DNA of 64,000 nt from Euzebya pacifica (GCF_003344865.1 NZ_CP031165.1:2299910-2363909); one strand, 5' to 3'; shown: positions 42,735-63,099, counted from the stretch's first letter. Notes: generated from the letters alone by a model not told the origin. A program made the numbers and translations.

Positions 42735-43043
42735 ATGTCGAGGAGCCGCCCGCCATACGCGCCTGACCTGCGTGAGCAGCTGATCGCCTTGGTGAAGGCC
42801 GGTCGCACGCCGGAAGAGCTGTCACGCGACTACGAGCCGACTGCCCAGACGATCCGCAACTGGATCGCTGCCGATGCGGCCGAGGACGACCCGGATCGGC
42901 TCGGCCGGGCTGAGCGTGATGAGCTCGTCCAGCTCCGCCGGGAGAACCGGATTCTGCGCGAGGAACGCGAGATCCTGCGAAAAGCCGCGGCCTGGTTCGC
43001 TGCGGAGACCGACGCGACGCCCCGGAGGCGTTCGCGTTCATGA
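42735..43043 (+). CDS. IS3-family transposase OrfA
   Basis: 102-aa DNA-binding subunit. N-terminal helix-turn-helix (APDLREQLIALVKAGRTPEE) followed by a leucine-zipper-like coil (ELVQLRRENRILREEREIL) that mediates multimerisation in the family. ATG 42735 has AGGATGGAG upstream. OrfB begins with an ATGA overlap at its stop; in IS3 elements a frameshift in the overlap normally makes an OrfAB fusion transposase. Confidence 0.9.
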   Translation: MSRSRPPYAPDLREQLIALVKAGRTPEELSRDYEPTAQTIRNWIAADAAEDDPDRLGRAERDELVQLRRENRILREEREILRKAAAWFAAETDATPRRRSRS

Positions 43044-46601: not shown

Positions 46602-47101
46602 CCGCGGCCCACGACCAGGCCGACCCGGCTGCCCCGTGGGGCGTACCCGCCGACGCCCTTGCCTTCCTGATCAAGGAGGCCCGTCTGGCCGACGAGCACG
46701 CGTACGAAGCGTGGGAGTCCCTGTGGGACGACGAGGCCCTGTACTGGGTGCCACGCGACCCTGAGCGCCCCTGGGACACACAGTTCTCCTACATCGCGGA
46801 CAACCGTGCACGGCTGCACAGCCGGATCGCGCAGCTGTGCACCGGCCACCGCTACTCCCAGGTCCCCCAGTCCCGGATGCGTCGAATGCTGTCCAACTTC
46901 GAGGTCACCTCCCAGGACGCCGAGCTGACCCAGGTGGCCTGCAACTTCGTCCTTCACGAATACCGGCTGGGGGCAACCGTGTGGGCGGGGCGCTACCGCT
47001 ACACAATTGCTCACCGCACGGATGGCCTGCGGCTTCGAAAGAAGGTCGTGGAGCTCGTCAACGCGGCTGGCCCAATTCCGACTCTGGGATTCTTGATCTG
47101 A
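46598..47101 (+). CDS. Ring-hydroxylating dioxygenase beta subunit (1)
   Basis: 167-aa small subunit of the alpha-beta oxygenase, SnoaL/NTF2-like cone fold, structural role. Typical blocks: ESLWDDEALYWVPRDPE, YIADNRARLHSRIAQL, SQVPQSRMRRMLSNFE and the end LRKKVVELVN. ATGA overlap with alpha 45339 and one-base spacing to the ligase 47103 place it in one operon. Confidence 0.92.
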   Translation: MTAAHDQADPAAPWGVPADALAFLIKEARLADEHAYEAWESLWDDEALYWVPRDPERPWDTQFSYIADNRARLHSRIAQLCTGHRYSQVPQSRMRRMLSNFEVTSQDAELTQVACNFVLHEYRLGATVWAGRYRYTIAHRTDGLRLRKKVVELVNAAGPIPTLGFLI

Positions 47102-47102
47102 G

Positions 47103-48644
47103 ATGACGTCCTTGATCGTCGGCGACATTCCGCGCCGGAATGCCCGCCGCTTCCCCCACAAGTCCGCGGTGGTCTGTGAGGACCGCACCCTGTCGTGGGC
47201 GGCGGTTGATGAGCGGGCGAACCGGCTGGCCACCGCATTGCTCGAGAGTGGCCTACGGGCGGGTGACCGGGTCGTGGTCTGCGCCCGCAACTGCTTGGAG
47301 TGGCCGGAGATCGTCTTCGGGTTGGCCAAGGCAGGGCTTGTCCTCGTTCCGATCAACACCCGGTTGGCCGTGGACGAGGTCGCCCACGCGTTGGCGACCG
47401 TCGAACCAGGTGCCGCGATCGTGCACCGGGACCAGTCGGCCGACCTGGGCGAGGCCTTCGCCGATCCCTTGCTTCCGGCCCTGGTGATCGGGGGCAGCGA
47501 GCTGGGCCGCTCCTACGACACGGCCCTCACCCACGGTCGGGCCACTGACCCGACACCGACCGACCTCCGGGGGGCCGATCCGAGAACCCTCCTGTTCACC
47601 AGCGGCACAACTGGACGGCCGAAGGCCGCGATCCACTCCCACGAGGGGATGATGCTGGCAGCGCTGGACCACTTGGTCCTCACCGGAGGCACGCACGATG
47701 ACGTGTGCTTGGCGGCCACGCCGTTCTTCACCGCCGGCGGGATGATGCGGACACTGAACTGGACCCACCTCGGCCAAACGATGGTCGTGATGCCACGGTT
47801 CGACGAGGCCGCCGCACTCGACCTCGTCCAGCGCCATCAGATCACCACCACAATCATGGTGCCGACCATGCTGGCCAGGGTGCTCGATGCCCTCACCCCG
47901 GACCACGACACCTCGTCGCTGCGGTTGCTCGGCTACGGGTCGGCCCCTGTCCCAACCGCGCTCGCCGAGGAAGCCACGGAACGGTTTGGCGTCCCGCTGT
48001 TCCAGCAGTACGGCTCGACCGAGACGGGGGGCTTGGTGACCTTCCTGTCCCCCGATCACCACCGCCGGGCACTGCACGGGGAGGACCATCTCCTCACGTC
48101 GTGTGGAGTGGAGACCCCGCTTGCGGAGATCCGGATCATGGCCGAGCCCGGGGTGGAGGCAGAGGCGGGGGCGCTCGGGGAGATCGCCGTCCGTGCACCG
48201 TCGGTGGCCCATGGCTACTGGGGCAATCCACAGGCCTGGGAAGCCAGCACCGACGACGGATGGCTCCTGACTGGCGATGTCGGACGACGGGACGAAGAGG
48301 GCCTCATCTACTTGGTCGACCGCAAGAACGACATGATCGTCAGCGGGGCATTCAACGTGTACCCGGCCGAGATCGAGCGCGTGCTCACCAGCGACCCCCG
48401 CGTGCGCCTCGCCGCGGTCATCGGGGTGGAAGATCACGATTGGGGCGAGCGTCCCGTCGCCTATGTCGTGCCGCGACAGGGCGCCGACGTGGACGGGCTG
48501 GCGGAGGAGCTGCGGCTGCTCTGCCGGGTACAGCTCGCCGGGTACAAGCAGCCCCGCGAAGTGCATCTGCGCAACGACTTGCCCATCACGGCGGCCGGAA
48601 AGATTCTCCGCCGCGCCCTGCGTGAGCCCACCCAAGTCCACTGA
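47103..48644 (+). CDS. AMP-forming acyl-CoA ligase (ANL superfamily)
   Basis: 513-aa ligase with P-loop TSGTTGRPKAA, QQYGSTETGG, GDVGRRDEEGLIYLVDRKND and C-terminal TAAGKILRR (catalytic Lys). ATG 47103 is one base beyond the beta-subunit stop. Within a Rieske operon it may form the CoA ester of the hydroxylated acid or of a side-chain acid; it could also act first, making the aryl-CoA. Confidence 0.9.
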   Translation: MTSLIVGDIPRRNARRFPHKSAVVCEDRTLSWAAVDERANRLATALLESGLRAGDRVVVCARNCLEWPEIVFGLAKAGLVLVPINTRLAVDEVAHALATVEPGAAIVHRDQSADLGEAFADPLLPALVIGGSELGRSYDTALTHGRATDPTPTDLRGADPRTLLFTSGTTGRPKAAIHSHEGMMLAALDHLVLTGGTHDDVCLAATPFFTAGGMMRTLNWTHLGQTMVVMPRFDEAAALDLVQRHQITTTIMVPTMLARVLDALTPDHDTSSLRLLGYGSAPVPTALAEEATERFGVPLFQQYGSTETGGLVTFLSPDHHRRALHGEDHLLTSCGVETPLAEIRIMAEPGVEAEAGALGEIAVRAPSVAHGYWGNPQAWEASTDDGWLLTGDVGRRDEEGLIYLVDRKNDMIVSGAFNVYPAEIERVLTSDPRVRLAAVIGVEDHDWGERPVAYVVPRQGADVDGLAEELRLLCRVQLAGYKQPREVHLRNDLPITAAGKILRRALREPTQVH

Positions 48645-48718: not shown

Positions 48719-49576
48719 ATGCCTGGACCCAGAATGGTTTTATGCGTGTCCCACAGCCCGCTAATGGACGGCGCCAACGGCGGCTTGGCAGGCAGCCGAT
48801 TCAGCGAGGCTCTCGATCTGGCGGCGGCGGAGGTGGCGCGCTTCAGTCCTGAGCTCGTCGTCTTCTTCGGCCCGGATCATGTGCGGGCGTTCGTGGACGT
48901 CGTGCCCAGCGTCGCCGTGGTTCGCAGCGCCGTCGGGTACGGCGACTGGGGCACCCCGGACGGTGACTACGACGTTGATCGGGAGACGGCCGACAGCGTC
49001 GCGGTTGCCCTTCTCGAGTCCGGCGTTGATGTCACCGTGGGGGACGGCGTGAGGCTTGACCACGGCTTCGGGCAGAGCTGGATGCAACTCATCGGGGAGC
49101 TCGACGCCGTGCCGATGGTTCCGATCGTGCTCAACTGCGCCCGACCACCCCTGGCACCGCTCTCACGGGCGCTCGGTGTCGGGCGCCGTGTCGGTGAGCA
49201 CCTGGCGCAGGACCCCCGTCGCATCATGTTCCTTGGCAGTGGTGGCCTCTCCCACTCCCCGCCGGCGCTGGAGACCGACACCAGCCACTTGTCGGAGGAC
49301 GAACGGCGCCAGTTCAACCTGGACCGGGTCAAGGCTGCCGGTGAGCGCGTCGACCCCGAGTGGGACGACCGGGTGCTGACCGCCCTTTGCGCCGGCGAGC
49401 TCGACCAGCTCGCGTCGATGACCGCCGAGGAGGTGGTCGTGGCGGGAGTTGGCGCCAATGAGCTCCGGACTTGGATCGCGGCCTGCGCCGCCAGCCCAGT
49501 CCTTCCGCGCCGCGTGGCCTATGAGCCGGTTCCGCAATGGATCACTGGGATGGGCCTGATCGCGAGCCCCGCATGA
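48719..49576 (+). CDS. Class III extradiol dioxygenase, MhpB-like
   Basis: 285-aa LigB-superfamily enzyme that resembles 2,3-dihydroxyphenylpropionate 1,2-dioxygenase (MhpB, about 314 aa): SHSPLMDG with H12, FFGPDH with H54, LDHGFGQSW with H115, FLGSGGLSHSPP with H179, and the end PVPQWITGMG. It would cleave a catechol-type ring next to a hydroxyl. ATG 48719 has GAGAGGAG and GAGGTAG upstream after a 74-bp gap that may hold an internal promoter. The alpha subunit 49573 overlaps by ATGA, pairing ring hydroxylation with ring cleavage. Confidence 0.88.
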   Translation: MPGPRMVLCVSHSPLMDGANGGLAGSRFSEALDLAAAEVARFSPELVVFFGPDHVRAFVDVVPSVAVVRSAVGYGDWGTPDGDYDVDRETADSVAVALLESGVDVTVGDGVRLDHGFGQSWMQLIGELDAVPMVPIVLNCARPPLAPLSRALGVGRRVGEHLAQDPRRIMFLGSGGLSHSPPALETDTSHLSEDERRQFNLDRVKAAGERVDPEWDDRVLTALCAGELDQLASMTAEEVVVAGVGANELRTWIAACAASPVLPRRVAYEPVPQWITGMGLIASPA

Positions 49577-50874
49577 GCCGGTCACTAGCCCCTGCCGAGC
49601 GCGCCCTGGAGATGGTGGACACCCAGCGGGTTCACCGCGACATTTATCGTGACCCGGAGGTCTTCATCGCCGAGATGGACCGGATCTTCGCTCGGTCCTG
49701 GGTGTATGTGGCTCATGAGTCGGAAGTCAGGGAAGCCGGCGACTACAAGACCACGCGAATTGGCACCCAGCCGGTCATCGTGAACCGAGACCGGCAGGGA
49801 GTGCTTCGGGTGATGCTCAACCGCTGCCGTCACCGCGCGGCAAGCGTGTGCCAGTTGAGGAGCGGCAACGCCACGTCCTTCCGCTGCCAGTACCACGGGT
49901 GGACCTACGACGCGTCAGGGGATCTCGTTGGGTTGCCGTTCCCCGAGGGGTACCAGCACCGCGACCGAGACGAACTCGGCCTGGTCCAGGCCGCACGGGT
50001 CGAAAGCTACCGGGGGCTCGTCTTCGCCAGTCTTGCCCCAGACGTCCCCTCGCTGGAAGACCATCTCAAGGGCGCCCGCCACTATATCGATCGCTTCATG
50101 GACCACCTGCCTGGCCACCAACTGGAGGTTGCCGACCAGGCGCACCGCATGGTCTTCAACGGCAACTGGAAGCTACAGATGGAGAACGGGGTCGATGGCT
50201 ACCACGCCAACTTCACCCACCAGTCGTTCTTCGCATTGATGCAGCAGGCAACCGGCCAGCAATCCCGGTACATCTCCAGCAAGGAGGAAGCCGAGTCGGA
50301 TGGCCCGACCTCGGCTCATCTGGGAAACGGGCACGGTCTGCTGGATCAGAGCCAGGCGGCGAGTGGCGTACTCCGCCAGCGGCTGCGCACCCTGCAGGAC
50401 GCGCCGCCCGACAACGCCGATCTTGCCGACTTCTTCGGGGTGCCCGATGGTGAGGCGCTGTACGCCGCCACGTCGGGGCCCGGGTTCAACGTCTCGGTGT
50501 TCCCCAATCTGCAACTCATCGGCATTCAGATACGGGAGATCCAGCCGGTGGCAGTGGACCGCACCGAGGTGATCATTCGCCCGATGCTCGGAACCGGTGC
50601 CCCCACCGCCATCAACCGCCTTCGACTTCGCTACCACGAGATGTTCTATGGGATCGGTGGCTTCGGGCAGCCAGATGACATGGAGATGTTTCGGCGGGTC
50701 GACGCCGGCTTGGACGCGACCGACGACGAGTGGCTGTGGCTGGATCGCGGGAGTCGACGAGAGCGTCCGGGCGCTGAGGAGGGACAGCGCGTCGGCCACA
50801 TCACCGACGAGACCCCGCAGCGAGGCCAGTACGCGCACTACCGCAAGCTGATGTCGGCTGAGGGGGGAGAGTGA
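49573..50874 (+). CDS. Rieske non-heme iron oxygenase, alpha subunit (3)
   Basis: 433-aa large subunit. Rieske ligands C85, H87, C105, H108 (RCRHRAAS, CQYHGWT); iron ligands D208, H211, H216 (GVDGYHANFTHQ). ATG 49573 overlaps the MhpB-like stop. The beta subunit 50874 follows by TGATG. Together with the preceding dioxygenase this is a compact hydroxylate-then-cleave module. Confidence 0.93.
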   Translation: MSRSLAPAERALEMVDTQRVHRDIYRDPEVFIAEMDRIFARSWVYVAHESEVREAGDYKTTRIGTQPVIVNRDRQGVLRVMLNRCRHRAASVCQLRSGNATSFRCQYHGWTYDASGDLVGLPFPEGYQHRDRDELGLVQAARVESYRGLVFASLAPDVPSLEDHLKGARHYIDRFMDHLPGHQLEVADQAHRMVFNGNWKLQMENGVDGYHANFTHQSFFALMQQATGQQSRYISSKEEAESDGPTSAHLGNGHGLLDQSQAASGVLRQRLRTLQDAPPDNADLADFFGVPDGEALYAATSGPGFNVSVFPNLQLIGIQIREIQPVAVDRTEVIIRPMLGTGAPTAINRLRLRYHEMFYGIGGFGQPDDMEMFRRVDAGLDATDDEWLWLDRGSRRERPGAEEGQRVGHITDETPQRGQYAHYRKLMSAEGGE

Positions 50875-51359
50875 TGGGTGTGTCACTCAGCGAGCTCGCG
50901 GGGGAGGACATTCAGCGCTTCCTTGCCACCGAGGCCGTGCTGCTGGATGAACGCCGTTTCACCGAATGGCTGGACCTGTGGGCGCCCGACGCGTGCTACT
51001 GGATACCGGTCGACCCGGACCTGGCCGGAGGCGACGACGCGGTCAACCACGTGTATGACGACCATGCCCGTCTTCGTACGCGCGTGGCCCGTCTGCTCGG
51101 ACCGGCGGCCCACACCGAAGAGCCGCCTCCGCGGTCCACGCGGGTCCACGGTCCGCCGGTTCTCAAGGCAACCGGCGAGCTGGCTCACGTCGTGACGCCG
51201 TTCGTCCTCACCGCACACCGTCAAGGCGCGACAGCCCTGGTGTCCGGGCGTTACCACCACCACCTCCGCACCACTGATGACGGTCTTCGTATCGTCACCA
51301 AACGGGTCGACCTCATCGACGCCGATGCGCCGCTGAACACGTTGCCGACCCTTCTCTGA
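50874..51359 (+). CDS. Ring-hydroxylating dioxygenase beta subunit (2)
   Basis: 161-aa small subunit with the SnoaL-like pattern: EWLDLWAPDACYWIPVDPD, HVYDDHARLRTRVARL and TKRVDLIDADAPLNTLP. ATG 50874 shares a base with the alpha stop; GTG 50871 directly before it is a less likely start. Forms an alpha-beta oxygenase with 49573. Confidence 0.92.
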   Translation: MGVSLSELAGEDIQRFLATEAVLLDERRFTEWLDLWAPDACYWIPVDPDLAGGDDAVNHVYDDHARLRTRVARLLGPAAHTEEPPPRSTRVHGPPVLKATGELAHVVTPFVLTAHRQGATALVSGRYHHHLRTTDDGLRIVTKRVDLIDADAPLNTLPTLL

Positions 51360-51406: not shown

Positions 51407-52624
51407 ATGATCGTGAACCCCCTCTCCCAATGGCGCCGCCGTGCGCTGCCACTCACACTCTTCTTGGCGCTCAGCCTCATCGCGACCGCCTGTGGCGATG
51501 ACGGCGAAGACGGCACCTCGACCGCGGACGCCGCGGACGTAACCGAGGCCGACGCCACCGACGCCACCGAGGCCGATGGCGCCGAGGCCACCGAGGCCGA
51601 CGCCACGGAGGCCGACGCCACCGAGGACGAGGGCGCCGACGCCACCGAGGCCGACTCCGCGGACGCCACCGAGGTGTCCTGCCCCGGCACGGAACCGATG
51701 ACCCTCCGCGTGGCCGCGATCGCCGGCAGCCGAGCCATGACCACCGGTCTGTGGCTGGGCGTGGCCGAGCAGGCGGGCATCTTGGAGGAAGAAGGCCTCA
51801 CGCTGGACATCGTGGACTTCCGGGCATCAGCCGACGTGAACAACGGGCTGTTGTCCGGTGAACTCGACATGGCCGTGAACGGGTCGGGCGGCATCGTGGC
51901 CACCGCGCAGGGCGGTGACGTCATCGGCGTTGGCGGCGGCGTGGACGTGTCAGTGTGGGAACCGTTGATCAACACCGAGCGCGTCACCGGTTGGGACGAC
52001 TTGGCCGGTAAGACGGTCGCGGTGTCCAGCACCAGCGGTGTGGTCTGGGCGGTCCTGGGCGACCTTCTCGCCGAGCAGGGTCTGACGCATGACGACATCG
52101 ACCCCGTCGTGATCGGGTCAACGTTTGAGAACTACGCGGCGCTTGAGTCCGGGCAGGTCGACTGGATCCCGGGTGCGGCCCCCGTCAACTTCATTGGTGA
52201 GGACTCCGGCTTCGAGCGATTGGGATACGCGCCCCCCGGTGGCGAGGTCCCGCTGTTCACGTCTGGGTACGTGTCCACCACCAGCGGCTTCGCCGAGGAG
52301 AACCCCGAGGCCGTCGTTCGGTTCATGCGCGCGTGGATCCGGACTGGGCAATGGGCAAAGGACCCGGCCAACTTCGAGCGTGTCGTGGAGATTGCGACGG
52401 AGGTCTCAGAGGTTGAGGAGTCCGTCGCCCGTCGTTCCATGGAGCTGTACTTGCTCGGTGACGTCCACTCGCCGTACTTCCTCGCCGAGGACGGGGAGAT
52501 CAATGACGAGTCCTTGACCAACCTCGTGGACAGCATGGTCCGTCAGGAGATCCTTGAGGAGGCCCCCTCACTGGATGACCTGCGCACCCACGAATATGCA
52601 CGGCAGGCCGTCGCCTGCCTCTGA
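51407..52624 (+). CDS. ABC transporter substrate-binding lipoprotein, NitT/TauT family (3)
   Basis: 405-aa lipid-anchored binding protein. Lipobox LIATAC, Cys29, followed by a low-complexity tether (about residues 30-85) built of imperfect ATEAD/ADATE repeats. The ligand domain shows MTTGLWLGVAEQAGILEEEG, GELDMAVNGSGGIV and DDLAGKTVAVSS. It resembles the 57992 product. A strong hairpin separates it from permease 52701, which would let the binding protein be made in excess over the membrane parts. Confidence 0.9.
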   Translation: MIVNPLSQWRRRALPLTLFLALSLIATACGDDGEDGTSTADAADVTEADATDATEADGAEATEADATEADATEDEGADATEADSADATEVSCPGTEPMTLRVAAIAGSRAMTTGLWLGVAEQAGILEEEGLTLDIVDFRASADVNNGLLSGELDMAVNGSGGIVATAQGGDVIGVGGGVDVSVWEPLINTERVTGWDDLAGKTVAVSSTSGVVWAVLGDLLAEQGLTHDDIDPVVIGSTFENYAALESGQVDWIPGAAPVNFIGEDSGFERLGYAPPGGEVPLFTSGYVSTTSGFAEENPEAVVRFMRAWIRTGQWAKDPANFERVVEIATEVSEVEESVARRSMELYLLGDVHSPYFLAEDGEINDESLTNLVDSMVRQEILEEAPSLDDLRTHEYARQAVACL

Positions 52625-52635
52625 CGCCTTAGTCG

Positions 52636-52668
52636 TCCGGGCGGCCCGTCTTCGGCGGGCCGCCCGGA
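52636..52668 (+). terminator. Strong hairpin between binding protein and permease
   Basis: Perfect 13-bp arms TCCGGGCGGCCCG (52636-52648) and CGGGCCGCCCGGA (52656-52668). The loop contains TTCG closed by C-G, a very stable tetraloop. No T tract. It likely gives partial termination or protects the upstream mRNA rather than ending the operon. Confidence 0.65.
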
Positions 52669-52700
52669 ACCTGACACCCACTCTCGGCTAGCGAGGCATT

Positions 52701-53522
52701 GTGACCGACATCATTGACAGGACCTCCACGTCCACGGCCCTCAAGAAGTCCGGGTCCACCGCCACGGGGGGGCGGAAACGCCGTCGTGTGCCCCTCGCCC
52801 TGATCTCCGTGATCGGAGGCTTCCTCCTCTGGGAGGCCGCGCTCGCGGTGTTCGAGGTCAGCGAGTTCGCGCTGGTTCCACCGTCGAAGATCGTCGGGGA
52901 GTTCGTCGTCGTGATCCGGGACGGATTGATCTGGGAACACCTCCGGGTCAGCGTCCTGGCCTTCGTCCTGGGCTTCGGAGTGTCCGCGGTCCTTGCCATC
53001 CCCCTTGGGCTGTTCGCCGGCACCAGTCGACCGTTTGGCGAGATCGCCTCCCCTTGGATCGCCGGGCTCTATGCCACTCCGATGATCGCTCTCGCACCCC
53101 TGTTGATCATCTCGCTCGGCTTCGGGATCGAGGCGAAGATGGCCGTCGTCGCCTTCGCCTGCTTCTTCCCGATGGTGATCAACACGATCTCCGGCGTGAA
53201 AGCGGTGGAGAGTTCGTTACTTGATGTCAGCACCGCGTTCGGCGCCACCCGGGCCGAGACCTTCCGCAAGATTCTGCTGCCGGGTTCTGTGCCATTCATC
53301 ATGGCCGGGCTCCAGCTCGCCGTCGGGCGCGGAGTGGTGGGTCTCGTCGTCGCTGACCTCTTCGGCTCGCGGGCGGGCCTCGGTCTGTTCCTGCTCAACA
53401 GCGCACAAGCCTTCAACATCGCCCGGGTGTTCGTCGCTGCCCTGACGCTGTCCATGCTCGGCGTGCTGTTCACGGCCCTGCTGCGATTCATGGAGAGCCG
53501 GATGCTCCGGTGGCGTCCTTGA
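52701..53522 (+). CDS. ABC transporter permease, NitT/TauT class
   Basis: 273-aa membrane subunit with a basic N-terminus (GGRKRRRVPLALI), several helices and the docking loop FGATRAETFRKILLPGSVPF. The start GTG 52701 has weak ribosome-site sequence. The MFS gene begins inside its last codons. Its ATPase is three genes on (55043), with an MFS transporter and a small protein between, an unusual order for this class. Confidence 0.9.
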   Translation: MTDIIDRTSTSTALKKSGSTATGGRKRRRVPLALISVIGGFLLWEAALAVFEVSEFALVPPSKIVGEFVVVIRDGLIWEHLRVSVLAFVLGFGVSAVLAIPLGLFAGTSRPFGEIASPWIAGLYATPMIALAPLLIISLGFGIEAKMAVVAFACFFPMVINTISGVKAVESSLLDVSTAFGATRAETFRKILLPGSVPFIMAGLQLAVGRGVVGLVVADLFGSRAGLGLFLLNSAQAFNIARVFVAALTLSMLGVLFTALLRFMESRMLRWRP

Positions 53523-54766
53523 CCAGAGCGCCAAGCGACATCGAGGCCGCCCATCGGGGCGCTGGTGGGCGGGTTGACCGGGGTTTTCCCGTCCTGTTGG
53601 TCCTGGCGATGGCAGTGGGCCCGTACCTCCAGCTCGGTCTCACGTCGATCGCTCCCGTGCTGCGGGAGGAGATGGGGCTGTCCCGCACACAGGTCGGCGC
53701 GTTGCCGGCGATTCTCTCTCTCGCGGCATGCCTGACCGCATGGCGCTGGGGTCGCTGGATCGACAGATCTCCGGCGGGACGAGTCGCGACCGCGCTGTTC
53801 GTCTCGTCGGCGATCAGCTTCGTGGCCGCGGCGGTCGCACCGGGTTTCCTCGGCCTGATCCCGGCGGTGGTCCTGGCCGGGGTGGCCATGGGTGGGTCGA
53901 ACCCGGTGACCAATGATCTCATCATGTCCCGCTATGCCGTCGGGCATCGCGGCGTCATCATGGGAATCAAGCAGTCCGGCGTCAACGCGGGGATTCTGCT
54001 GGCTGGAGTCACTCTGCCACTGGCCGCAGCTGCGGGATTCTGGCGTGAAGCCCTGTTCTTGAGCGCCGCGTGGCCGGTTGCCGGTCTGCTGCTCGTGCGT
54101 CATCAAGTCGTGCGGCAACCACATCAGCCTGATCAGGCTGACCTGTCCGTGGACGACGGGCCGCGGGAGGAGGGCGCCAGGATGCCCAGCGAGGTGCGTG
54201 TGCCCTTGCGGCTCCTCCTCGCCTACACCGGGATCATGGGGGCCGCTGTCGCCTCAGGGAGCACGTACGCCCCGCTGTTCGCCTTCGAATCCCTCGACAT
54301 CGGCACGAGTTCCGCCGGGTTCGTCACGGCGATGCTTGGCGGCGTTGGATTTGCCGCGCGGTTGTCCTGGGGACGTGTGGCCGACCGTCACGCCGATCCG
54401 CGGAGACTTCTGCAGATCATGGCCCTGGGCACTGCCGGCGGCGGCGTCTTGGTTGCCATCCTCGGTACTGTTTCCTACCCCCTCCTGCTGTTGGCCCTCG
54501 CGGTGTACGCGTCGTTTTCAAGCGCTTGGGTGGTAGTGGCGATGCTCACGACGACGAGTGCCGTGCCCCCAGCTTGGTCGGGGCAGGCGACCGGCCTCGT
54601 CATGATGACGTTTTACGCCGGCTACATGATCGGCCCCGTCTCTTTCGGGTGGTTGGTCGACACCTTCAACACCTACACGCCAGCCTTCACGGCGCTCGTG
54701 GCCATGGCCTTGGTGGCGACGCTGGTTCCAACCCGCATGCACCTGAAGATCGAGGAGATTTCATGA
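53510..54766 (+). CDS. Major facilitator superfamily transporter
   Basis: 418-aa carrier with about twelve helices in two halves separated by a hydrophilic loop near 205-230 (QPHQPDQADLSVDDGPREE). The segment AWRWGRWIDRSPAGR matches the family loop between helices 2 and 3. GTG 53510 overlaps the permease end by 13 bases; TTG 53519 (TTGA overlap) is an alternative. It may import the aromatic acid with protons, in parallel with the ABC system. Confidence 0.87.
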   Translation: MASLTRAPSDIEAAHRGAGGRVDRGFPVLLVLAMAVGPYLQLGLTSIAPVLREEMGLSRTQVGALPAILSLAACLTAWRWGRWIDRSPAGRVATALFVSSAISFVAAAVAPGFLGLIPAVVLAGVAMGGSNPVTNDLIMSRYAVGHRGVIMGIKQSGVNAGILLAGVTLPLAAAAGFWREALFLSAAWPVAGLLLVRHQVVRQPHQPDQADLSVDDGPREEGARMPSEVRVPLRLLLAYTGIMGAAVASGSTYAPLFAFESLDIGTSSAGFVTAMLGGVGFAARLSWGRVADRHADPRRLLQIMALGTAGGGVLVAILGTVSYPLLLLALAVYASFSSAWVVVAMLTTTSAVPPAWSGQATGLVMMTFYAGYMIGPVSFGWLVDTFNTYTPAFTALVAMALVATLVPTRMHLKIEEIS

Positions 54767-55059
54767 CCCGCAACGCCACAGAATGGGAGAGCCAGGGAGT
54801 CGTCGTCGCCAGCGAGTTCGCCGCGGTACGCGTCAGGCTCGACACCACGGCCAACGGTCCGCGCCTGAGAGTTGAGGACTTGGACGGAGATGCCGTCACG
54901 TACTTGGAGGCACTTGAGCTGGCCAGCCTGTGTCTGGCCAGCGATTCGGACCGTCGCCGCTGGCTTGCCGTCGGGGCCTATCAAGATCCCGTTGGCGATC
55001 CAGAACCAGCCCAGATGCACGACCGTGAACAAGGAGATGCCGATGTCCGTCGCAGCTGA
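54763..55059 (+). CDS. Small protein, 98 aa, of aromatic-catabolism operons
   Basis: Begins with an ATGA overlap on the MFS gene (GAGGAG upstream). The N-terminal 60 residues (WESQGVVVASEFAAVRVRLD, then GPRLRVEDLDGD and LEALELASL) resemble a small family often labelled dihydrodiol dehydrogenase in actinobacteria, although no dehydrogenase fold is present at this size. The C-terminal 25 residues are polar and overlap the ATPase start. Function unknown; the coupling to transporter genes is clear. Confidence 0.6.
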   Translation: MTRNATEWESQGVVVASEFAAVRVRLDTTANGPRLRVEDLDGDAVTYLEALELASLCLASDSDRRRWLAVGAYQDPVGDPEPAQMHDREQGDADVRRS

Positions 55060-55870
55060 GACCGAGTCGTTGGGAACCCGCGCCGGGGTGGCGATCGCCG
55101 CCAAGTCGGTGAATCGGGTCTTCGACAGTCCGGATGGGGCCACCTTCACCGCGTTGAACGACGTGCAACTGGATGTCAAGGCGGGTGAGTTCGTCGCCGT
55201 GGTGGGCCCGTCCGGCTGTGGCAAGACCACCCTGCTGAGAATCGTCATGGGCTTGGAGAAGGCCAGCAGCGGCGACGTCACCTTTGACGCGAGTGGCGAC
55301 GAGGTCATCCGAAGCTTCGTGTTCCAGCAGTCCTCGCTGTTGCCATGGCGCACGGTGAAGGACAACATCGCCTTCGGTCTGGAGTTGCAATGCCGTCGCG
55401 ATCAGCGCGCCACCGGAACACTTCGAATGGAGGAGCTGCTCGAACTCACCGGCCTCACCAGCTTCCAGGACTACTACCCCTCCCAGCTGTCAGGCGGCAT
55501 GCAGCAGCGCGTCAACCTCGCCCGGGCGTTGGCCATCGATCCCAACGTGCTGTTGATGGACGAGCCGTTCAGCGCCCTCGACGCCATGACCAAGGAGCAT
55601 CTGCAGCGCGAGCTGACTGTGATTGCCTCCCACCTGCGGGCGACCGTGCTGTTCGTCACCCATGACATCCGCGAGGCGGTGTTCCTCGCCGACCGGGTCG
55701 TGGTGATGGCCACGGATCCAGGACGAATTGTGGAGACGGTCACCGTTGACGCCCCAGACACGCGGGACGAGGAGTTCCAGCGCTCGCCCGAACTCGCGTC
55801 GCAGGCCCGGGAGATCTGGGCGATGCTGGGGCACGCGCAGCGTTCGACCGACGACGGCCAAACGTCCTGA
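55043..55870 (+). CDS. ABC transporter ATP-binding protein, NitT/TauT class
   Basis: 275-aa ATPase: Walker A GPSGCGKTT, Q-loop FQQSSLLPW, signature LSGGMQQRV, Walker B VLLMDEPFSALD, and VTHD. ATG 55043 has AAGGAG six bases upstream; ATG 55037 lies too close to it. It overlaps the small-protein gene by 17 bases. Completes the importer with permease 52701 and binding protein 51407, and perhaps 57992. Confidence 0.92.
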   Translation: MSVAAETESLGTRAGVAIAAKSVNRVFDSPDGATFTALNDVQLDVKAGEFVAVVGPSGCGKTTLLRIVMGLEKASSGDVTFDASGDEVIRSFVFQQSSLLPWRTVKDNIAFGLELQCRRDQRATGTLRMEELLELTGLTSFQDYYPSQLSGGMQQRVNLARALAIDPNVLLMDEPFSALDAMTKEHLQRELTVIASHLRATVLFVTHDIREAVFLADRVVVMATDPGRIVETVTVDAPDTRDEEFQRSPELASQAREIWAMLGHAQRSTDDGQTS

Positions 55871-55883
55871 CCAGGGGCTCGTC

Positions 55884-56627
55884 ATGGATCTTGGACTTGC
55901 AGGAAGGACCTTCGTCACGACCGGCTCGAGTCGTGGGCTGGGACGGGCGGTCACCGACGAGCTGGTCGCGGAGGGGGCCAACGTGGTCATCGCGTCGCGT
56001 GATGCTGACCGTGCGCGCGAGGTCGCGACCGACCTTGGTGACCAGGCCCACGGGGTGCGTGTGGACCTTCGCGACCCCGCGGCCGGCGTCGAGTTGGCCG
56101 AGGAGGCCCGGAACCGGTTCGGTGCCCTCGATGGCGCCTTGGTCAATCACTGGGGCCCCCCGTCGGGCGCGGCACTCGAGGTCACTGACGAGGCGGTGGC
56201 CGCGGCGCTGGATCTGGGGGTGGCTGCCGTTGTCCGGCTTGTTCGCGACATTGGCACCCGACTTCAGGAGGGCGGCGCGATGCTGGTGGTGGGTTCGGTG
56301 ACGGTGCGTGAGCCGGCCGATGCCTTGGTTGGCTCAACCGTCTCCAGACCAGGTGCGTGGGCCTACATCAAGCAAGCCTCCCGACCGCTCGGGGAACGAG
56401 GGGTCCGGGTCAACATGCTGCTGCCCGGGGCGTTCGCCACTGAGCGACTACGCGAGCTGTCGGGAGGCGTCGCAGGGGACAGCGCATTCGTCCGGGACGT
56501 CCCGCTCGGGCGCGCTGGACGGCCAGAGGAGTTCGGACGGGTTGGCGCCTTCCTCCTGTCACCCATGTCGTCCTACGTCACGGGTGCCTCGCTGGTCATC
56601 GACGGCGGCTCGAGCCGGTCGCTGTGA
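55884..56627 (+). CDS. SDR family protein lacking the catalytic Tyr motif
   Basis: 247-aa Rossmann protein with the cofactor loop TGSSRGLG and the C-terminal SLVIDGGSSRSL, but NNAG reads VNHWGP and the YxxxK motif is replaced by SRPGAWAYIK. Other SDRs of the FabG-labelled group also carry an Arg-Pro-Gly segment there. It may be an atypical reductase or a binding protein. ATG 55884 follows the ATPase by 13 bases; the PrpD-like gene overlaps its stop by GTGA. Confidence 0.8.
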   Translation: MDLGLAGRTFVTTGSSRGLGRAVTDELVAEGANVVIASRDADRAREVATDLGDQAHGVRVDLRDPAAGVELAEEARNRFGALDGALVNHWGPPSGAALEVTDEAVAAALDLGVAAVVRLVRDIGTRLQEGGAMLVVGSVTVREPADALVGSTVSRPGAWAYIKQASRPLGERGVRVNMLLPGAFATERLRELSGGVAGDSAFVRDVPLGRAGRPEEFGRVGAFLLSPMSSYVTGASLVIDGGSSRSL

Positions 56628-57826
56628 CCGCCGTGACTCCTCAACGCGCTTGGCCCCCTCACATTGCGACGGTGCCAGCGCACGATGGCCACGACGTGGC
56701 ACTGCGCGACGCGATCGCCTGCATGGCTGGGGGCGCGGCGACGCCCCTGCGCCACTCGCCCCCTTCACTTGGCAGCGACCCGGGTCACCTGGCTCGCTGG
56801 CTCGCGACGGTCGGGCATGTCCTTGACTTCGATGACACGTTCACTCCGGGCCTCGCGCACCTCAGCAGTCCCACCGCCGCCGCCGCCCTCGCAATGGCGA
56901 GCCACTTGGACGGCGACGTCGCGGTCGTCGCCCAGGGACACCGCCGGGGGTGGGAGTTCATGGCCGCGATGACCCGGGCCCACCACCCCGCGCTGTATGA
57001 TCTTGGATGGCACCCGACGGCGGTGTGCGGGGCGCCGGCCGCGGCGGTCGCGGCTGGCACCGTCCTGGGGTTGGATGGCGAGGACCTGACCCAGGCCGTT
57101 CGCCTCGCCGCCCTGGGGACGGGTGGGCTGCAGGCGGCCTTCGGGTCCGATGGCAAGTCGTTGCAGGTGGGCTTGGCGGCACAAACCGGCGTCACGGCCG
57201 CCCACCTGGCACGCAAGGGCACCGACCTGGGTGACCGGGTCGATTACGAGTGGGGCCGAGCGCACGGCTCGGAGTCGGCCGCCGAGCCGATGCGGTTGGA
57301 CGCCGTCGTGGACAACTGGATAAAGGCGTACGCCTGTTGCCTGCAGACCCACACCTCGATCGAAGCCGCGTGGGAAGCCACTCGATCGGGAGCCACCGCA
57401 GGGGCGCCGGTGAAGGTCACGGTCCACCCCCTGTCACGGAGGGCGGCTCCGCTGGATGCCGTCTCCAGTCCCCTGGAATCGAAGTTCTCCATTCCCTACC
57501 TGACGGCGTTCGTCCTGTCCCGGGGGCGCCCGCCAACCTTCACCGACCTCCAACGGGTCGATGCCGATGCCGCCGCCCTGGTCCCGACGGTGACCGTCGT
57601 CGAGGACCCCGGTCTGCCGCAGTCCACGGCGGTCCTCCAGATTGATGGGGTCGAGGTCCGCTGTGACGCAGCACTGGGCTCCCCCGCGCGACCGATGTCG
57701 GCTCAGCAGCACGAGGACAAGGTGGACAGCTTGGGGGCCAGCCAAGTGGTGGGACTCCTGGATCGGCCCGGAACGCCGGCCATGTCGGTGGTCGCCGTCC
57801 TGATCGAACGCGTCGGGCTCGACTGA
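56624..57826 (+). CDS. MmgE/PrpD family protein (2-methylcitrate dehydratase-like)
   Basis: 400-aa protein of the MmgE/PrpD fold, which includes 2-methylcitrate dehydratase, aconitate decarboxylase and iminodisuccinate epimerase. Typical traits: DFDDTFTPGLAHLSS near the active-site Asp-Asp, the helix-rich core AVRLAALGTGGLQAAFGSDGKSLQVG, and PLESKFSIPYLTAFVL with the conserved Lys. GTG 56624 overlaps the SDR stop. In a catabolic operon it could hydrate or isomerise an unsaturated di- or tricarboxylate from ring cleavage. Confidence 0.85.
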   Translation: MTAVTPQRAWPPHIATVPAHDGHDVALRDAIACMAGGAATPLRHSPPSLGSDPGHLARWLATVGHVLDFDDTFTPGLAHLSSPTAAAALAMASHLDGDVAVVAQGHRRGWEFMAAMTRAHHPALYDLGWHPTAVCGAPAAAVAAGTVLGLDGEDLTQAVRLAALGTGGLQAAFGSDGKSLQVGLAAQTGVTAAHLARKGTDLGDRVDYEWGRAHGSESAAEPMRLDAVVDNWIKAYACCLQTHTSIEAAWEATRSGATAGAPVKVTVHPLSRRAAPLDAVSSPLESKFSIPYLTAFVLSRGRPPTFTDLQRVDADAAALVPTVTVVEDPGLPQSTAVLQIDGVEVRCDAALGSPARPMSAQQHEDKVDSLGASQVVGLLDRPGTPAMSVVAVLIERVGLD

Positions 57827-57834
57827 ATCGGACC

Positions 57835-57867
57835 GGCCGGGCGAGCCGGCCTGAGTGGCGTGCCACT
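57835..57867 (+). terminator. Two adjacent hairpins after the PrpD-like gene
   Basis: GGCCGG-GCGAG-CCGGCC (57835-57851) and AGTGGC-GT-GCCACT (57854-57867) lie just after the stop at 57826. Together they are a reasonable terminator for the 51407-57826 unit. The rest of the gap to 57992 holds no other feature I can support. Confidence 0.5.
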
Positions 57868-57991
57868 GACCGGAATCCCCCGGTGTTCCCGCTTCGCGGT
57901 CCTGACCAGAATCCCCCTGACGAGCCACCCGCCGGTCCGGTGCCTTCGTTGCACGGTCATTCAAGGATCGCCTAGAGCCAGGAGTCGCACG

Positions 57992-59209
57992 ATGTTGATC
58001 CCCTCCGAGTTCCGATTCACTTGGACAAGGGCTCTTGCCCTGACCATGGTGCTGCTGGGTGGCCTCACGGCGTGTTCGTCCAGCGACGACGACACCGCGA
58101 CGGCTGACGACGATTCGGCACGCGTCAGCGAGGCACCATCATCGACGGGCGACGACGACGGGGCGGACAGCGCGGCATCCGCGGACGACACCGCCGCCGA
58201 CGCTGAAACCGACACGGCGACCGTGGTTGAGGATCCATGTGCACCGGGTGCGTCGGAACCCACCCTTGTCACCGTCGGGCTCCAGACCGGGCGCCACGGG
58301 ATGACAACCGGCTACTGGATCGCGATGGCCGAGGAATTCGGGTACTTCGAGGAGGTCAACATCGAGATCGACGACGTTGCCGCTTCGAGCGCCACGGACC
58401 TGCTCAACGGGCTGACCGCCGGGGAACTCGAGGTCAACGTCATGGGCTCCGCGGGCATGATCTCGGCCTCCCAAGGCGCTGACATGATCGCGGTGGCCGG
58501 TGCGGTCAACTCCTCGATCTGGGAACCCATCTCCGCGTCCGAGTTCCAGACCTGGGACGACCTTCGTGGTGCGACGATCGGGGTCTCCAACGTCAATGGC
58601 GTCAACGCCCACGCGTTCCGACAAATGGCCGAGCTCGCTGGACTGGACCCGGAAACCGATCTGGAGTTCATCCAGGCAGGCGCAACAGCCGAGGCCTTCC
58701 TCGCGCTGCGCGGTGGACAGATCGATGCGCTTCCGGCCGCCCCGCCGACCAACTTCCTGGCCGCCGATGAGGGCTTCACCACCTACGGTTTCGCTCCTGA
58801 AGGGACCGACGTGCCGAAGATCTCGGCGCTGCAGATCCTCACCTCGCGTGAGTGGGCCGAGTCCAACGATGTCGTGCTGACCTGCTTCATGCGGGGGATC
58901 CTGCGGCTGATCGACTTCGTGGAAGACCCCTCCAACCGGGACGAAGTCATCGAGGTCTCGCTCCCGATCCTGCAGGGGGGTTCGTCAACGATTGAGGACG
59001 AGCACTTGATCCAGGCAATAGAGCTGTACATCGATGACCCGCTCCTGGCGCCGTACGTCTGGCACGACCTCCACCTCCCCGAGGACTCCTTCCAGGCGGC
59101 GATGGACATCTTCATCGCGGGCGGATCAATCGAGGCGGACAACGCGATCGCCTACGAGGACTTCGTCGACCACACTTACATCGACGCGGCGATCGCCGCC
59201 GAGGAGTGA
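57992..59209 (+). CDS. ABC transporter substrate-binding lipoprotein, NitT/TauT family (4)
   Basis: 405-aa binding protein. Lipobox GLTAC, Cys28, then an Asp/Ser/Ala-rich tether to about residue 85. The ligand domain has MTTGYWIAMAEEFGYFEEV and GELEVNVMGSAGMI, clearly related to the 51407 product. CCAGGAG precedes ATG 57992; the frame to the left is not a signal peptide. No ABC core follows, so it probably uses 52701/55043 or serves as an alternative receptor. Confidence 0.9.
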   Translation: MLIPSEFRFTWTRALALTMVLLGGLTACSSSDDDTATADDDSARVSEAPSSTGDDDGADSAASADDTAADAETDTATVVEDPCAPGASEPTLVTVGLQTGRHGMTTGYWIAMAEEFGYFEEVNIEIDDVAASSATDLLNGLTAGELEVNVMGSAGMISASQGADMIAVAGAVNSSIWEPISASEFQTWDDLRGATIGVSNVNGVNAHAFRQMAELAGLDPETDLEFIQAGATAEAFLALRGGQIDALPAAPPTNFLAADEGFTTYGFAPEGTDVPKISALQILTSREWAESNDVVLTCFMRGILRLIDFVEDPSNRDEVIEVSLPILQGGSSTIEDEHLIQAIELYIDDPLLAPYVWHDLHLPEDSFQAAMDIFIAGGSIEADNAIAYEDFVDHTYIDAAIAAEE

Positions 59210-59252: not shown

Positions 59253-60518
59253 ATGTTGACGTTGAGTGATCGCATCACTGACGAGCGAGTCCACGGATCG
59301 CTCTACACCGACCAGGCCGTCTACCAGCAGGAGATGGATCGCATCTTCAGGATGGGGTGGCTGTTCGCCGGTCACGCGAGCGAGATCCCCCAGCCGGGGG
59401 ACTACGTGACCCGCGACATCGCCGGGGAACCCCTCATCCTGTCACGGACGGTTGAGGGGGAGATCCGGGTGCTCTTCAATCGGTGCGCCCATCGTGGGAA
59501 CCGGGTGTGCGTGCTCGACCAGGGCAACGCCACGTCCTACCGCTGCCACTATCACGGCTGGACTTACCGCAACGATGGCCAGCTGTCGGGGATTCCTTTC
59601 GCCAAGGGGTACGAGGAACCGCTGGAGGACTTGCGGAAGTCGATGAGCATGGCCCCCGTCCCCCGGAGCGAGGTTCGGCACGGCTTCGTCTTCGTGTCGC
59701 TGGCCGAGGACGGCCCCGACCTCGACACCCACATGGGCGATGGTGGGCTGGACATGCTGGCGCGGTTGTCCGGCATGTCGCCCACCGGCGAGATCAGCCT
59801 TGGAAAGGGCTGGCTGCACCACCGCCTCGGCGCCAACTGGAAGGCGGTGATGGAGAATCAAGTTGACGGCTACCACGTCCAGTTCACCCACGCTTCCCTT
59901 TTCGAAGGGGCCAGCGGACCGCGCAAGGGCATCACCTACGGACAGAAGAGTGGGGCTGCGGTTCGGGACCTCGGCAGAGGACACTCCGAGATCCTGTTCG
60001 AGGCCGAGCACCGGCGTCAGGACCAGGAGTTCCTGTGGATCGGGTCCGCAACCCGTGCCAAGCTGCCGGAGTACAGCCGCGCCATGGTGGAGGCCTACGG
60101 AGAAGAGGAGGCCCACGACCGATTCGTCGCCGGCCCGCCCCATGGCGTGATCTTCCCCAACCTCTTCCTCGCGGAGTTCAACATCTTCGTGGTCGAGCCG
60201 GTATCGGCGGGCGTGACCAACAGTTGGACGGCGGCCATCACGATCCCAGGCTGCGACGACATCTCGCTCCGCCAGCTGCGGCGGTCCGAAGCCGCCATGG
60301 GCCCCGCCGGAATGCTGATCGCTGACGATTCAGAGATCGCGGAACGCAACCAAGCCGGTTTCGGCGCGAACCAGCCGGAATGGGTCGACTTGACCCGCGG
60401 CCGCGCCGGAGTTGTCCCGGACCCCGAACTCTCCTACGCCCAGCTCGACCCCGATCTCACTGGTGAACTCCCACAGCGGGCGTTCTGGCGCCAGTACAAG
60501 TCGCTGATGGTGTCATGA
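59253..60518 (+). CDS. Rieske non-heme iron oxygenase, alpha subunit (4)
   Basis: 421-aa large subunit. Rieske ligands C78, H80, C98, H101 (RCAHRGNR, CHYHGWT); iron ligands D205, H208, H213 (QVDGYHVQFTHA). GAGGAGGAG lies before ATG 59253. Its beta subunit is not next to it but after the NDP-forming ligase (62611), all linked by stop/start overlaps. Most like the alpha at 45339. Confidence 0.93.
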   Translation: MLTLSDRITDERVHGSLYTDQAVYQQEMDRIFRMGWLFAGHASEIPQPGDYVTRDIAGEPLILSRTVEGEIRVLFNRCAHRGNRVCVLDQGNATSYRCHYHGWTYRNDGQLSGIPFAKGYEEPLEDLRKSMSMAPVPRSEVRHGFVFVSLAEDGPDLDTHMGDGGLDMLARLSGMSPTGEISLGKGWLHHRLGANWKAVMENQVDGYHVQFTHASLFEGASGPRKGITYGQKSGAAVRDLGRGHSEILFEAEHRRQDQEFLWIGSATRAKLPEYSRAMVEAYGEEEAHDRFVAGPPHGVIFPNLFLAEFNIFVVEPVSAGVTNSWTAAITIPGCDDISLRQLRRSEAAMGPAGMLIADDSEIAERNQAGFGANQPEWVDLTRGRAGVVPDPELSYAQLDPDLTGELPQRAFWRQYKSLMVS

Positions 60519-62611
60519 GTCCAACACCACCTGAGCGACGCGGGATTGACGCCCTGCTTCGCCCCTCCAGCGTGGCCGTGGTCGGGGCCACTGCCGAGGA
60601 GACCAAGTTTGGCGGGGCGGCGCTGCGCAACCTTGTGGACTTCGGCTTCTCCGGGACCATCCATCCGGTCAACCCGTCCCACTCAACCATCGCGGGACTC
60701 CCCTGCGTCGCCTCCTTGAGCGATCTCCCGCCCGGCTCGGTCGAACTGGCGGTCATGGCCGTCCCGAGCCGTTTCGTGGTGCAGGAGTGCCAGGCGGCGG
60801 TGGCGCACGGGGTCGGCGCGATCATTGTCTTTGCATCCGACCTTCCGCCAGAGGACCTTGCGGAGCTCCGCGAACTCGCGACCACGAGCGGGGTCAGGCT
60901 CTTGGGCCCGAACACCTCGGGGCTCTCAAACTTGCGCGACCGATTCGTGCCGCGGGGGGCCAAGACCCATTCTCGCAACCTGGGACCGGGGAACGTGGCG
61001 GTGTTCGCCCAGTCCGGCGGGCTGAGCGCCACCATCACCAACCTCCTGCCGCCCTACGGTGTCGGGCTGGCCTACACCGTCTCAGTCGGACAGCAACTCG
61101 ATGTCGATCTGTGGGACCTGACCGACCACGCGGCCGGCGACGACGACATCGACACCATCGTGGTCGCCGTGGAGGACGTCACCCGGCCGGACGCGATGGT
61201 CGCGGCCGTCCGGCGGGCGGTCACGACCGGCAAGCTGGTGGTCGCGTTGCGTCTGGGGCGGACGGCGTCTGGAGCCGCGGCCGTCGCCACTCACACCGGG
61301 GCGATCGTTGGTGACGCCGGTCCGAGCCTGGACCTGCTCGCCGCTGCGGGAGCGCTCGTCGTTGACGACATCGACATGATCGCCGCCCTGATCGGACTGA
61401 GGAACCTGCTCCCACCCACCGTCCGCGGTCTGGACCGGGTCGCGGTGATGACGACGTCAGGAGCCGAGGGGGCGCTCATCGCCGACGTCCTTCACGACGG
61501 CGGCTGTGCGCTCCTCCCCCTGCCCGACGAGAGTCAAGCGTGGGTCGGGGCCAACCTGCGAATGGTGCCGCCGACGAATCCCCTTGACACTGGTGGGGCG
61601 ATCGTGACCGATCAACGATCGATTGCGGAGACCTTGACCCACTTGCGGACCCTTGATCGCGACATCGATCTCGTCTTGGCGAACATCACCGCGTTCGCCG
61701 ACAACTACGAGTTCGTCTATGAGTGCGCGCATGACGGCGCGAGTGCGGACCTGCCGGTCCCGATCGTTCTGGCAGCACGGCACGTCGAGGGGCTCAATGA
61801 CAAGGGCATCGCCCACCTCCGACAGGGGGCGTTCCCGCGCTTTCGTTCGGGTCCGTTCGCTGCCCGGGTCATCGCCAGGTACAACACGTGGCTCCGCGCC
61901 TCCACGACACTACCGGGACTGCATCTCAGTGGGTCACGGCCCGGCGTCACCACCGGGGCACCCGTCACTCTGCCCTATTGGCAGTCGCGCCTCCGACTCG
62001 CCTCGGCCGGATTGGGCTTTCCCGCTGGGGACGTGGTCGACGACGCCACTCTGGCCGGCAAGGTGGCCGCCGACATCGGTGGCCCGGTGGCCCTGAAGCT
62101 GTCTTCCACCACCCTCAACCACAAAACCTTGGGTGGGGGAGTGGCCCTTGGACTGACCGATGCCGAGGCGGTCACGTCAGCGGCGGAGCGCATGCTGAGC
62201 ATGGCGCGTGACAACGGCGATGCCTCGGCGGTGGTCAGCGTCGAGGCCATGATGCCCGCGCCCGTCGAGCTGCTGCTCGGTGCCGTACGGGATCCCGCGC
62301 TGGGTCCCTGTGTCGTCCTCGGGCTGGGTGGCTCGGTGGCTGAGGCACTTGCTGAGGTGGTCACCCTTCCCATCCCCCTCGAGCGCGACGCGGCCGCCTG
62401 GATGCTGGATCACTCGGCCCTGGGGCGGATGCCTCTGGTCACGGCGCACCGCGGCGCGATTGAGGACGCGGTCGTGGCGTTGGCCTCATGGTTGGACCAC
62501 CACGACGACGTCGTCTCGGTGGACATCAATCCGCTCGCCCTTTCGTTGGACGGGACCCTGACGGCGTTGGATGCCCGGGTTGTCCTCCACGTTGTCCCTG
62601 AGGAACGCTGA
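60515..62611 (+). CDS. NDP-forming acyl-CoA ligase (acetyl-CoA synthetase alpha-beta fusion)
   Basis: 698-aa fusion of the ADP/NDP-forming acyl-CoA synthetase family. Order: CoA-binding Rossmann domain (SSVAVVGATAEETKFGG, 18-34), two succinyl-CoA-ligase-like domains with the expected phospho-His H260 in VATHTGAIVG, then a C-terminal ATP-grasp domain (LKLSSTTLNHKTLGGGVALG). It makes acyl-CoA from acid, CoA and ATP with ADP release, reversible and cheaper than AMP ligases. It is inserted between an oxygenase alpha and its beta, overlapping both (ATGA, TGATG). Confidence 0.88.
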   Translation: MSPTPPERRGIDALLRPSSVAVVGATAEETKFGGAALRNLVDFGFSGTIHPVNPSHSTIAGLPCVASLSDLPPGSVELAVMAVPSRFVVQECQAAVAHGVGAIIVFASDLPPEDLAELRELATTSGVRLLGPNTSGLSNLRDRFVPRGAKTHSRNLGPGNVAVFAQSGGLSATITNLLPPYGVGLAYTVSVGQQLDVDLWDLTDHAAGDDDIDTIVVAVEDVTRPDAMVAAVRRAVTTGKLVVALRLGRTASGAAAVATHTGAIVGDAGPSLDLLAAAGALVVDDIDMIAALIGLRNLLPPTVRGLDRVAVMTTSGAEGALIADVLHDGGCALLPLPDESQAWVGANLRMVPPTNPLDTGGAIVTDQRSIAETLTHLRTLDRDIDLVLANITAFADNYEFVYECAHDGASADLPVPIVLAARHVEGLNDKGIAHLRQGAFPRFRSGPFAARVIARYNTWLRASTTLPGLHLSGSRPGVTTGAPVTLPYWQSRLRLASAGLGFPAGDVVDDATLAGKVAADIGGPVALKLSSTTLNHKTLGGGVALGLTDAEAVTSAAERMLSMARDNGDASAVVSVEAMMPAPVELLLGAVRDPALGPCVVLGLGGSVAEALAEVVTLPIPLERDAAAWMLDHSALGRMPLVTAHRGAIEDAVVALASWLDHHDDVVSVDINPLALSLDGTLTALDARVVLHVVPEER

Positions 62612-63099
62612 TGAACGCATCCACGCTATCGGTCGAACGGCGCTTGGCCGTCCACGACTTCCTCAACCATGAGGCCGAGTTGCTCGACGCCCACGAATAC
62701 CGGTCCTGGTTGGAGATGTGGGAGGACGACGGGATCTACTGGGTCCCCGCGTCGGACCGCTCCGCTGATGATCCTGACTCGGCCATCAACATCATCTATG
62801 ACAACCGTCGCCGGATCGAACGCCGCGTGGCGCAGCTGGAGACTGGGTTGCGGCATGCCCAGATCCCCGCGTCGCGGTTGGTGCGGACGATCGGGACAAT
62901 CTCGGCAACGGCCAGTGACGAAGGCGTCGATGTCCGCATGGCGTTCGTCCTGGTGGAGTCACGGAGGGAGCAGCACGTGTGGTCCGGACGGGTCGAGTAC
63001 GCCCTGCGCGCCCGGGACGAAGGGTTCGGGATCCGTCAGAAGAAGGTGCTGCTGGTCGATCCGCGGAAGCCGCTGCGCACCCTGGCCTTCCTTCCGTGA
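62611..63099 (+). CDS. Ring-hydroxylating dioxygenase beta subunit (3)
   Basis: 162-aa small subunit: EYRSWLEMWEDDGIYWVPAS, IIYDNRRRIERRVAQLETG and the end RQKKVLLVDPRKPLRTLAFLP. The ATG shares a base with the ligase stop. By elimination its partner is alpha 59253, two genes upstream; it is nearest in pattern to the 46598 beta. Confidence 0.92.
   Translation: MNASTLSVERRLAVHDFLNHEAELLDAHEYRSWLEMWEDDGIYWVPASDRSADDPDSAINIIYDNRRRIERRVAQLETGLRHAQIPASRLVRTIGTISATASDEGVDVRMAFVLVESRREQHVWSGRVEYALRARDEGFGIRQKKVLLVDPRKPLRTLAFLP

Follow-up and report, generated by a model that had tools for sequence, protein, structure and literature searches.

A conserved Rieske alpha, NDP-forming ligase, Rieske beta gene order in Euzebya, probably part of an ipf-type aryl-CoA degradation operon

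Introduction

Why does a gene for an NDP-forming acyl-CoA ligase stand between the genes for the alpha and beta subunits of a Rieske ring-hydroxylating oxygenase in Euzebya pacifica, and what might the three products do? The locus lies near the end of the window analysed here, a stretch of 64,000 nucleotides corresponding to positions 2299910-2363909 of the 6.37-Mb genome. The initial annotation proposed that all three genes are needed together, perhaps for oxygenation of an aryl-CoA or for immediate CoA trapping of the product. A relevant precedent is the ipf route, in which the substrate is first ligated to CoA, the resulting ester is dioxygenated and a retro-aldol cleavage then yields propionyl-CoA and 4-isobutylcatechol (PMC9195938; PMC6063337). 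Its ligase, IpfF, when purified, forms CoA esters of ibuprofen, phenylacetate and both 2- and 3-phenylpropionate (PMC9956071).

Results

The three-gene unit

Analysis of the reading frames and Pfam domains bore out the original description of the locus in every detail, including both gene starts, the length of the ligase and the overlaps. The alpha subunit A3 (59253..60518, plus strand, 421 aa; Pfam Rieske and Ring_hydroxyl_A), with an AGGAGG about 7 nt 5' of its ATG, is followed on the same strand by the ligase (60515..62611, 698 aa; CoA_binding_2, Succ_CoA_lig and ATP-grasp_5) and the beta subunit B3 (62611..63099, 162 aa; Ring_hydroxyl_B, 3e-28). The A3 and ligase genes overlap by 4 nt (ATGA, 60515-60518) and the ligase and B3 genes by 1 nt (TGATG). 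A3 carries the Rieske ligands from C78 (CxH...CxxH) and the D205-x2-H-x4-H iron motif which, with the separate beta subunit, are the features of a two-subunit Rieske oxygenase. As had also been noted, the other two Rieske pairs in the window are adjacent (45339-46601/46598-47101 and 49537-50874/50871-51359). The overlaps argue for matched expression of the three genes; by themselves they do not demonstrate a complex.

The ligase has the three domains of NDP-forming acyl-CoA synthetases (CoA-binding, Succ-CoA-ligase-like and ATP-grasp) and both catalytic His motifs: a THTG motif starting at residue 259, whose His lines up with that of the SHTG motif in ACD1 alpha (4xyl), and, within the ATP-grasp part, an HK motif at 536. 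With both motifs intact, the enzyme is predicted to be active. Outside the genus the best matches share about 32% identity with it and include no characterised close relative, and given this its substrate could be unrelated to aryl acids. The NDP-forming class can nevertheless take aryl acids, since the feruloyl-CoA synthetase FerA, which like the ligase belongs to the PF13380 domain family, was identified by that domain (PMC5863372). FerA-like genes on Sphingobium plasmids, about 31% identical to the ligase, have a crotonase gene as their neighbour instead of one for a Rieske oxygenase. No publication linking an NDP-forming ligase to phenylacetate or to a ring-hydroxylating dioxygenase came up in literature searches.

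Conservation and distribution of the arrangement

Comparison of four genomes of the genus revealed an orthologue of the ligase, at 70% identity, in a second species (G002), which retains the order A3, ligase, B3 at 70-87% protein identity and overlaps at both junctions. In G002 each overlap is 4 nt, namely GTGA between alpha and ligase, ATGA between ligase and beta, and GTGA between beta and the following aldolase gene, and the whole cluster, from A1 of the first adjacent pair through the OB-fold gene described below, is syntenic. The hydratase-to-aldolase block of MhpD/F/E-like genes (window coordinates 64841-67620) is inverted in G002 relative to E. pacifica. The ligase is less conserved than its neighbours (70% versus 79-87% identity), and a simple Nei-Gojobori count gave dN/dS values of 0.10 for alpha, 0.25 for the ligase, 0.14 for beta and 0.14 for the aldolase, which for the ligase points to purifying selection.

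Ligase orthologues were confined to this genus: two of 66 Acidimicrobiia and two of 396 sampled Actinomycetota genomes contained one, and the other genomes searched in these sets contained none. A scan of GTDB contigs by exact short peptides, which detects close relatives only, returned four Bradyrhizobium loci at 32-35%, and none of the plasmid matches listed (60 of 948 and 60 of 467 records) had an alpha gene adjoining this ligase. On the Sphingobium herbicidovorans plasmid pSHV1 (7840-11703), an NDP-forming ligase gene lies directly behind thiolase and OB-fold genes, without a Rieske oxygenase. The gene order thus occurs in more than one genome, so the condition under which the initial annotation would have allowed a chance insertion does not apply. 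Within the searches made, however, it is restricted to a pair of Euzebya species: a genuine arrangement kept by selection, but one of narrow distribution. Since alpha and beta are adjacent in every relative read (ipf-type, Rhodococcus, Streptomyces and a clade linked to enoyl-CoA hydratase genes), their separation by the ligase is most simply a derived state.

Downstream genes

In the adjoining genome sequence the operon continues past the end of the window, with a plus-strand gene for a thiolase-fold protein (63170-64315; the window ends at 64000) that starts 70 nt after B3 in E. pacifica, is 42% identical to IpfD and matches the retro-aldolase Ltp2 (6ok1_A). The possibility of a true thiolase was rejected because the catalytic Cys and the GHP His are missing, as they are from IpfD in the same alignment. 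Instead, Y281 and Y331 align with Tyr294 and Tyr344 of Ltp2 (6ok1), the catalytic residues of TcLtp2 (PMC12329534), and the next gene (64318-64737) encodes a DUF35/OB-fold protein with an OB_ChsH2_C domain that matches ChsH2-DUF35, the partner of Ltp2. By sequence, then, the pair has the features of an Ltp2-type retro-aldolase: two catalytic Tyr residues, loss of the thiolase Cys and His, and a DUF35 partner. The steroid side-chain enzyme Ltp2-ChsH2 likewise combines a thiolase fold, paired catalytic Tyr residues and a DUF35 partner, but Ltp2 acts on steroid side-chain CoA esters, its DUF35 partner is part of a hydratase rather than stand-alone as here, and its YDHF motif is YDPF in the E. pacifica aldolase.

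Behind the OB-fold gene lie genes of the lower meta-cleavage pathway for catechol, namely those for a 2-oxopent-4-enoate hydratase, which scores below its curated cut-off, and for an acylating acetaldehyde dehydrogenase and a 4-hydroxy-2-oxovalerate aldolase, which pass theirs. The operon contains no recognisable gene for a ferredoxin or a reductase, and no C-C hydrolase (MhpC) gene was identified nearby; a short Rieske ORF (120 aa) is present elsewhere in the genome.

Upstream genes

The first alpha gene of the cluster is directly preceded by an IS3-like transposase (about 42740-43830; OrfA/OrfB in two frames, identified by eye). This fourth alpha gene (about 44056-45339), which lacks an adjoining beta and scores 254 bits against the BenA model, is followed by the plus-strand genes A1 (45339..46601), the alpha of a canonical second set, which is 52-54% identical to ipf-like alphas of Rhodococcus and Streptomyces and 40.5% to IpfA; B1 (46598..47101), which adjoins A1, matches NCBIfam beta-subunit models and is 44% identical to IpfB; and an AMP-forming acyl-CoA ligase (47103..48644; Pfam AMP-binding), which is 48-50% identical to the ligase adjoining the Rhodococcus alpha and beta genes and 33% to IpfF. 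Next on this strand are a LigB-type, MhpB-like extradiol dioxygenase (48719..49576; Pfam LigB), which at 270 bits just misses the cut-off of 286 for the NCBIfam 3-carboxyethylcatechol 2,3-dioxygenase subfamily, and the Rieske pair A2/B2 (49537..51359; NCBIfam/Pfam), whose alpha has the benzoate dioxygenase model as its top-scoring match and falls outside the group of A1, A3 and IpfA in our tree. Between A2/B2 and A3 (51407..59209, plus strand; Pfam) are uptake genes (two NMT1-type binding proteins, a permease, an ATPase and an MFS transporter), an SDR and an MmgE/PrpD gene, all syntenic in G002. A genome-wide Pfam scan also revealed a Rieske-domain ORF (492 aa open frame) at genome position 2296125, about 3.8 kb before the window start.

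Relationship to ipf and related clusters

Comparison with ipfABDEF of Rhizorhabdus wittichii MPO218 (pIBU218), Sphingomonas Ibu-2 and Sphingopyxis granuli RW412 revealed the same cluster content, namely alpha, beta, aldolase, OB-fold protein and CoA ligase, with meta-cleavage of the catechol afterwards, and the same five kinds of gene occur together on pIBU218 and in Paraburkholderia BN5, Chelativorans, Variovorax WDL1 and Rhodococcus plasmids. Both the IpfD-like aldolase and the IpfE-like OB-fold partner are present in the E. pacifica cluster. In contrast to the ipf order, in which adjacent alpha and beta genes precede IpfD, IpfE and the AMP-binding IpfF, an NDP-forming ligase takes the place of IpfF at A3/B3 and lies between alpha and beta; the AMP-forming ligase adjoins A1/B1, and together with these genes makes up a second alpha/beta/AMP-ligase set that the ipf clusters lack. 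A3 is 36% identical to IpfA, B3 is 38-39% identical to IpfB and 41% to B1, and no NCBIfam equivalog cut-off was reached.

A3 forms a clade with A1 and actinobacterial (Rhodococcus/Streptomyces) alphas that are linked to thiolase and OB-fold genes (support 95/97, then 85/96 after one row was corrected); how this A3/A1 group joins the IpfA clade or the enoyl-CoA-hydratase-linked clade is not resolved in the tree. The closest plasmid alphas, from Rhodococcus and Streptomyces, come immediately after thiolase-family and OB-fold genes and precede beta: Rhodococcus GD02 and 7B have thiolase, OB-fold, alpha and beta genes followed by AMP-binding ligases, and a Streptomyces NBC_00564 plasmid has thiolase, OB-fold, alpha and beta. 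These clusters are closest to A1 (52-54%), with A3 at 47-49% and the aldolase at 49-52%; their alpha and beta genes are adjacent, and the stretches read contain no NDP-forming ligase. The hydratase-linked clade, a distinct one, comprises Rieske alpha/beta pairs among enoyl-CoA hydratase genes on plasmids of Rhodococcus, Pseudonocardia, Mycobacterium avium, Sulfitobacter and Variovorax, which suggests another CoA-ester Rieske pathway.

Discussion

Taking together the observed gene identities, junctions, conservation, catalytic residues, synteny and clade membership, we propose that the three genes probably belong to an ipf-type aryl-CoA degradation operon in which the NDP-forming ligase feeds A3B3. 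The ligase would form the CoA thioester of an arylacetic or a 2-arylpropionic acid; A3B3 would dioxygenate the ring of this ester at its ipso and ortho positions, placing the ipso hydroxyl beta to the thioester; the thiolase-fold protein and its DUF35/OB-fold partner would then catalyse retro-aldol cleavage to acetyl- or propionyl-CoA and a catechol; and the MhpB-like, MhpD, MhpE and MhpF enzymes would convert the catechol to pyruvate and acetyl-CoA. The substrate class, the order of the steps and the supply of A3B3 by this ligase are the predicted elements of the scheme. Because the genome contains no second close copy of the aldolase (the next best is 34%), both oxygenase sets may share one, and A1/B1, together with its AMP-forming ligase, probably relies on the aldolase pair as well.

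Of the two functions first suggested for the locus, oxygenation of an aryl-CoA is thus the most likely reading, based on the Ltp2-like aldolase with DUF35, the ipf-like gene set and the CoA-linked clade, although a pathway of this kind was already known. The suggestion that all three genes are needed together agrees with a single conserved, translationally overlapping unit, but since the ligase lies elsewhere in the ipf and Rhodococcus clusters, its position between alpha and beta is unnecessary for the chemistry. Counting against the ipf-type reading are the complete AMP-forming ligase already in the cluster, the low identities of A3 to IpfA (36%) and B3 to IpfB (39%), and the absence of a recognised ferredoxin/reductase and MhpC.

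The main rival is an unrelated short-acid role for the ligase, as a co-regulated side enzyme that recycles a short acid or CoA ester (an ADP-forming acetyl/propionyl-CoA synthetase) while aryl-CoA for both oxygenases comes from the AMP-forming ligase (47103-48644), which of the two is closer to the ipf-like ligase of Rhodococcus. The best curated models for the ligase are indeed acetate-, 3-hydroxypropionate- and 4-hydroxybutyrate-CoA ligases, but the ligase falls well short of every cut-off (at best 224 of the 567 bits required) and in both species its gene stays between A3 and B3 instead of flanking them, making such a role unlikely. CoA trapping, in which the free aromatic acid is the oxygenase substrate and CoA is attached by the ligase to a later product such as a ring-cleavage or dihydrodiol acid, draws on the many acids that NDP-forming ligases accept and on the free-acid dioxygenases in the wider family of A3 (NCBIfam benzoate/anthranilate models). 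This proposal fits less well because ipf logic puts CoA ligation ahead of oxygenation; moreover, the downstream Ltp2-type aldolase requires a beta-hydroxyacyl-CoA, which suits the same order, and the A3 clade is tied to thiolase/OB-fold genes in every neighbourhood read, so we regard CoA trapping as quite unlikely.

A neutral event that placed an unrelated gene between the two subunit genes would suit the restriction to one genus and the faster divergence of the ligase relative to its neighbours, but is highly improbable given the intact catalytic His residues and the dN/dS of 0.25, and the conservation of the order and of the overlaps at both junctions in the second species led us to reject chance insertion. 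A more speculative proposal, which we consider a long shot, is that the ligase is co-translated between alpha and beta so as to assemble with the nascent oxygenase; in such a channelling complex, aryl-CoA would pass directly from the reversible ADP-forming ligase to the Rieske oxygenase.

Under the favoured ipf-type reading, the chemistry, which we infer from the gene set, is already known, and what is new is the exchange of the ligase class and the placement of the ligase between alpha and beta. These results suggest that the route of CoA activation, dioxygenation and retro-aldol cleavage reaches into Acidimicrobiia, where a different class of ligase has been substituted, and a single cluster appears to contain two oxygenase sets, with ligases of different superfamilies, converging on one aldolase pair. 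AMP-binding IpfF alone would therefore be an unsafe marker for such pathways, and the cluster offers a model for the natural breakdown of arylacetates or arylpropionates and possibly for what becomes of profen drugs.
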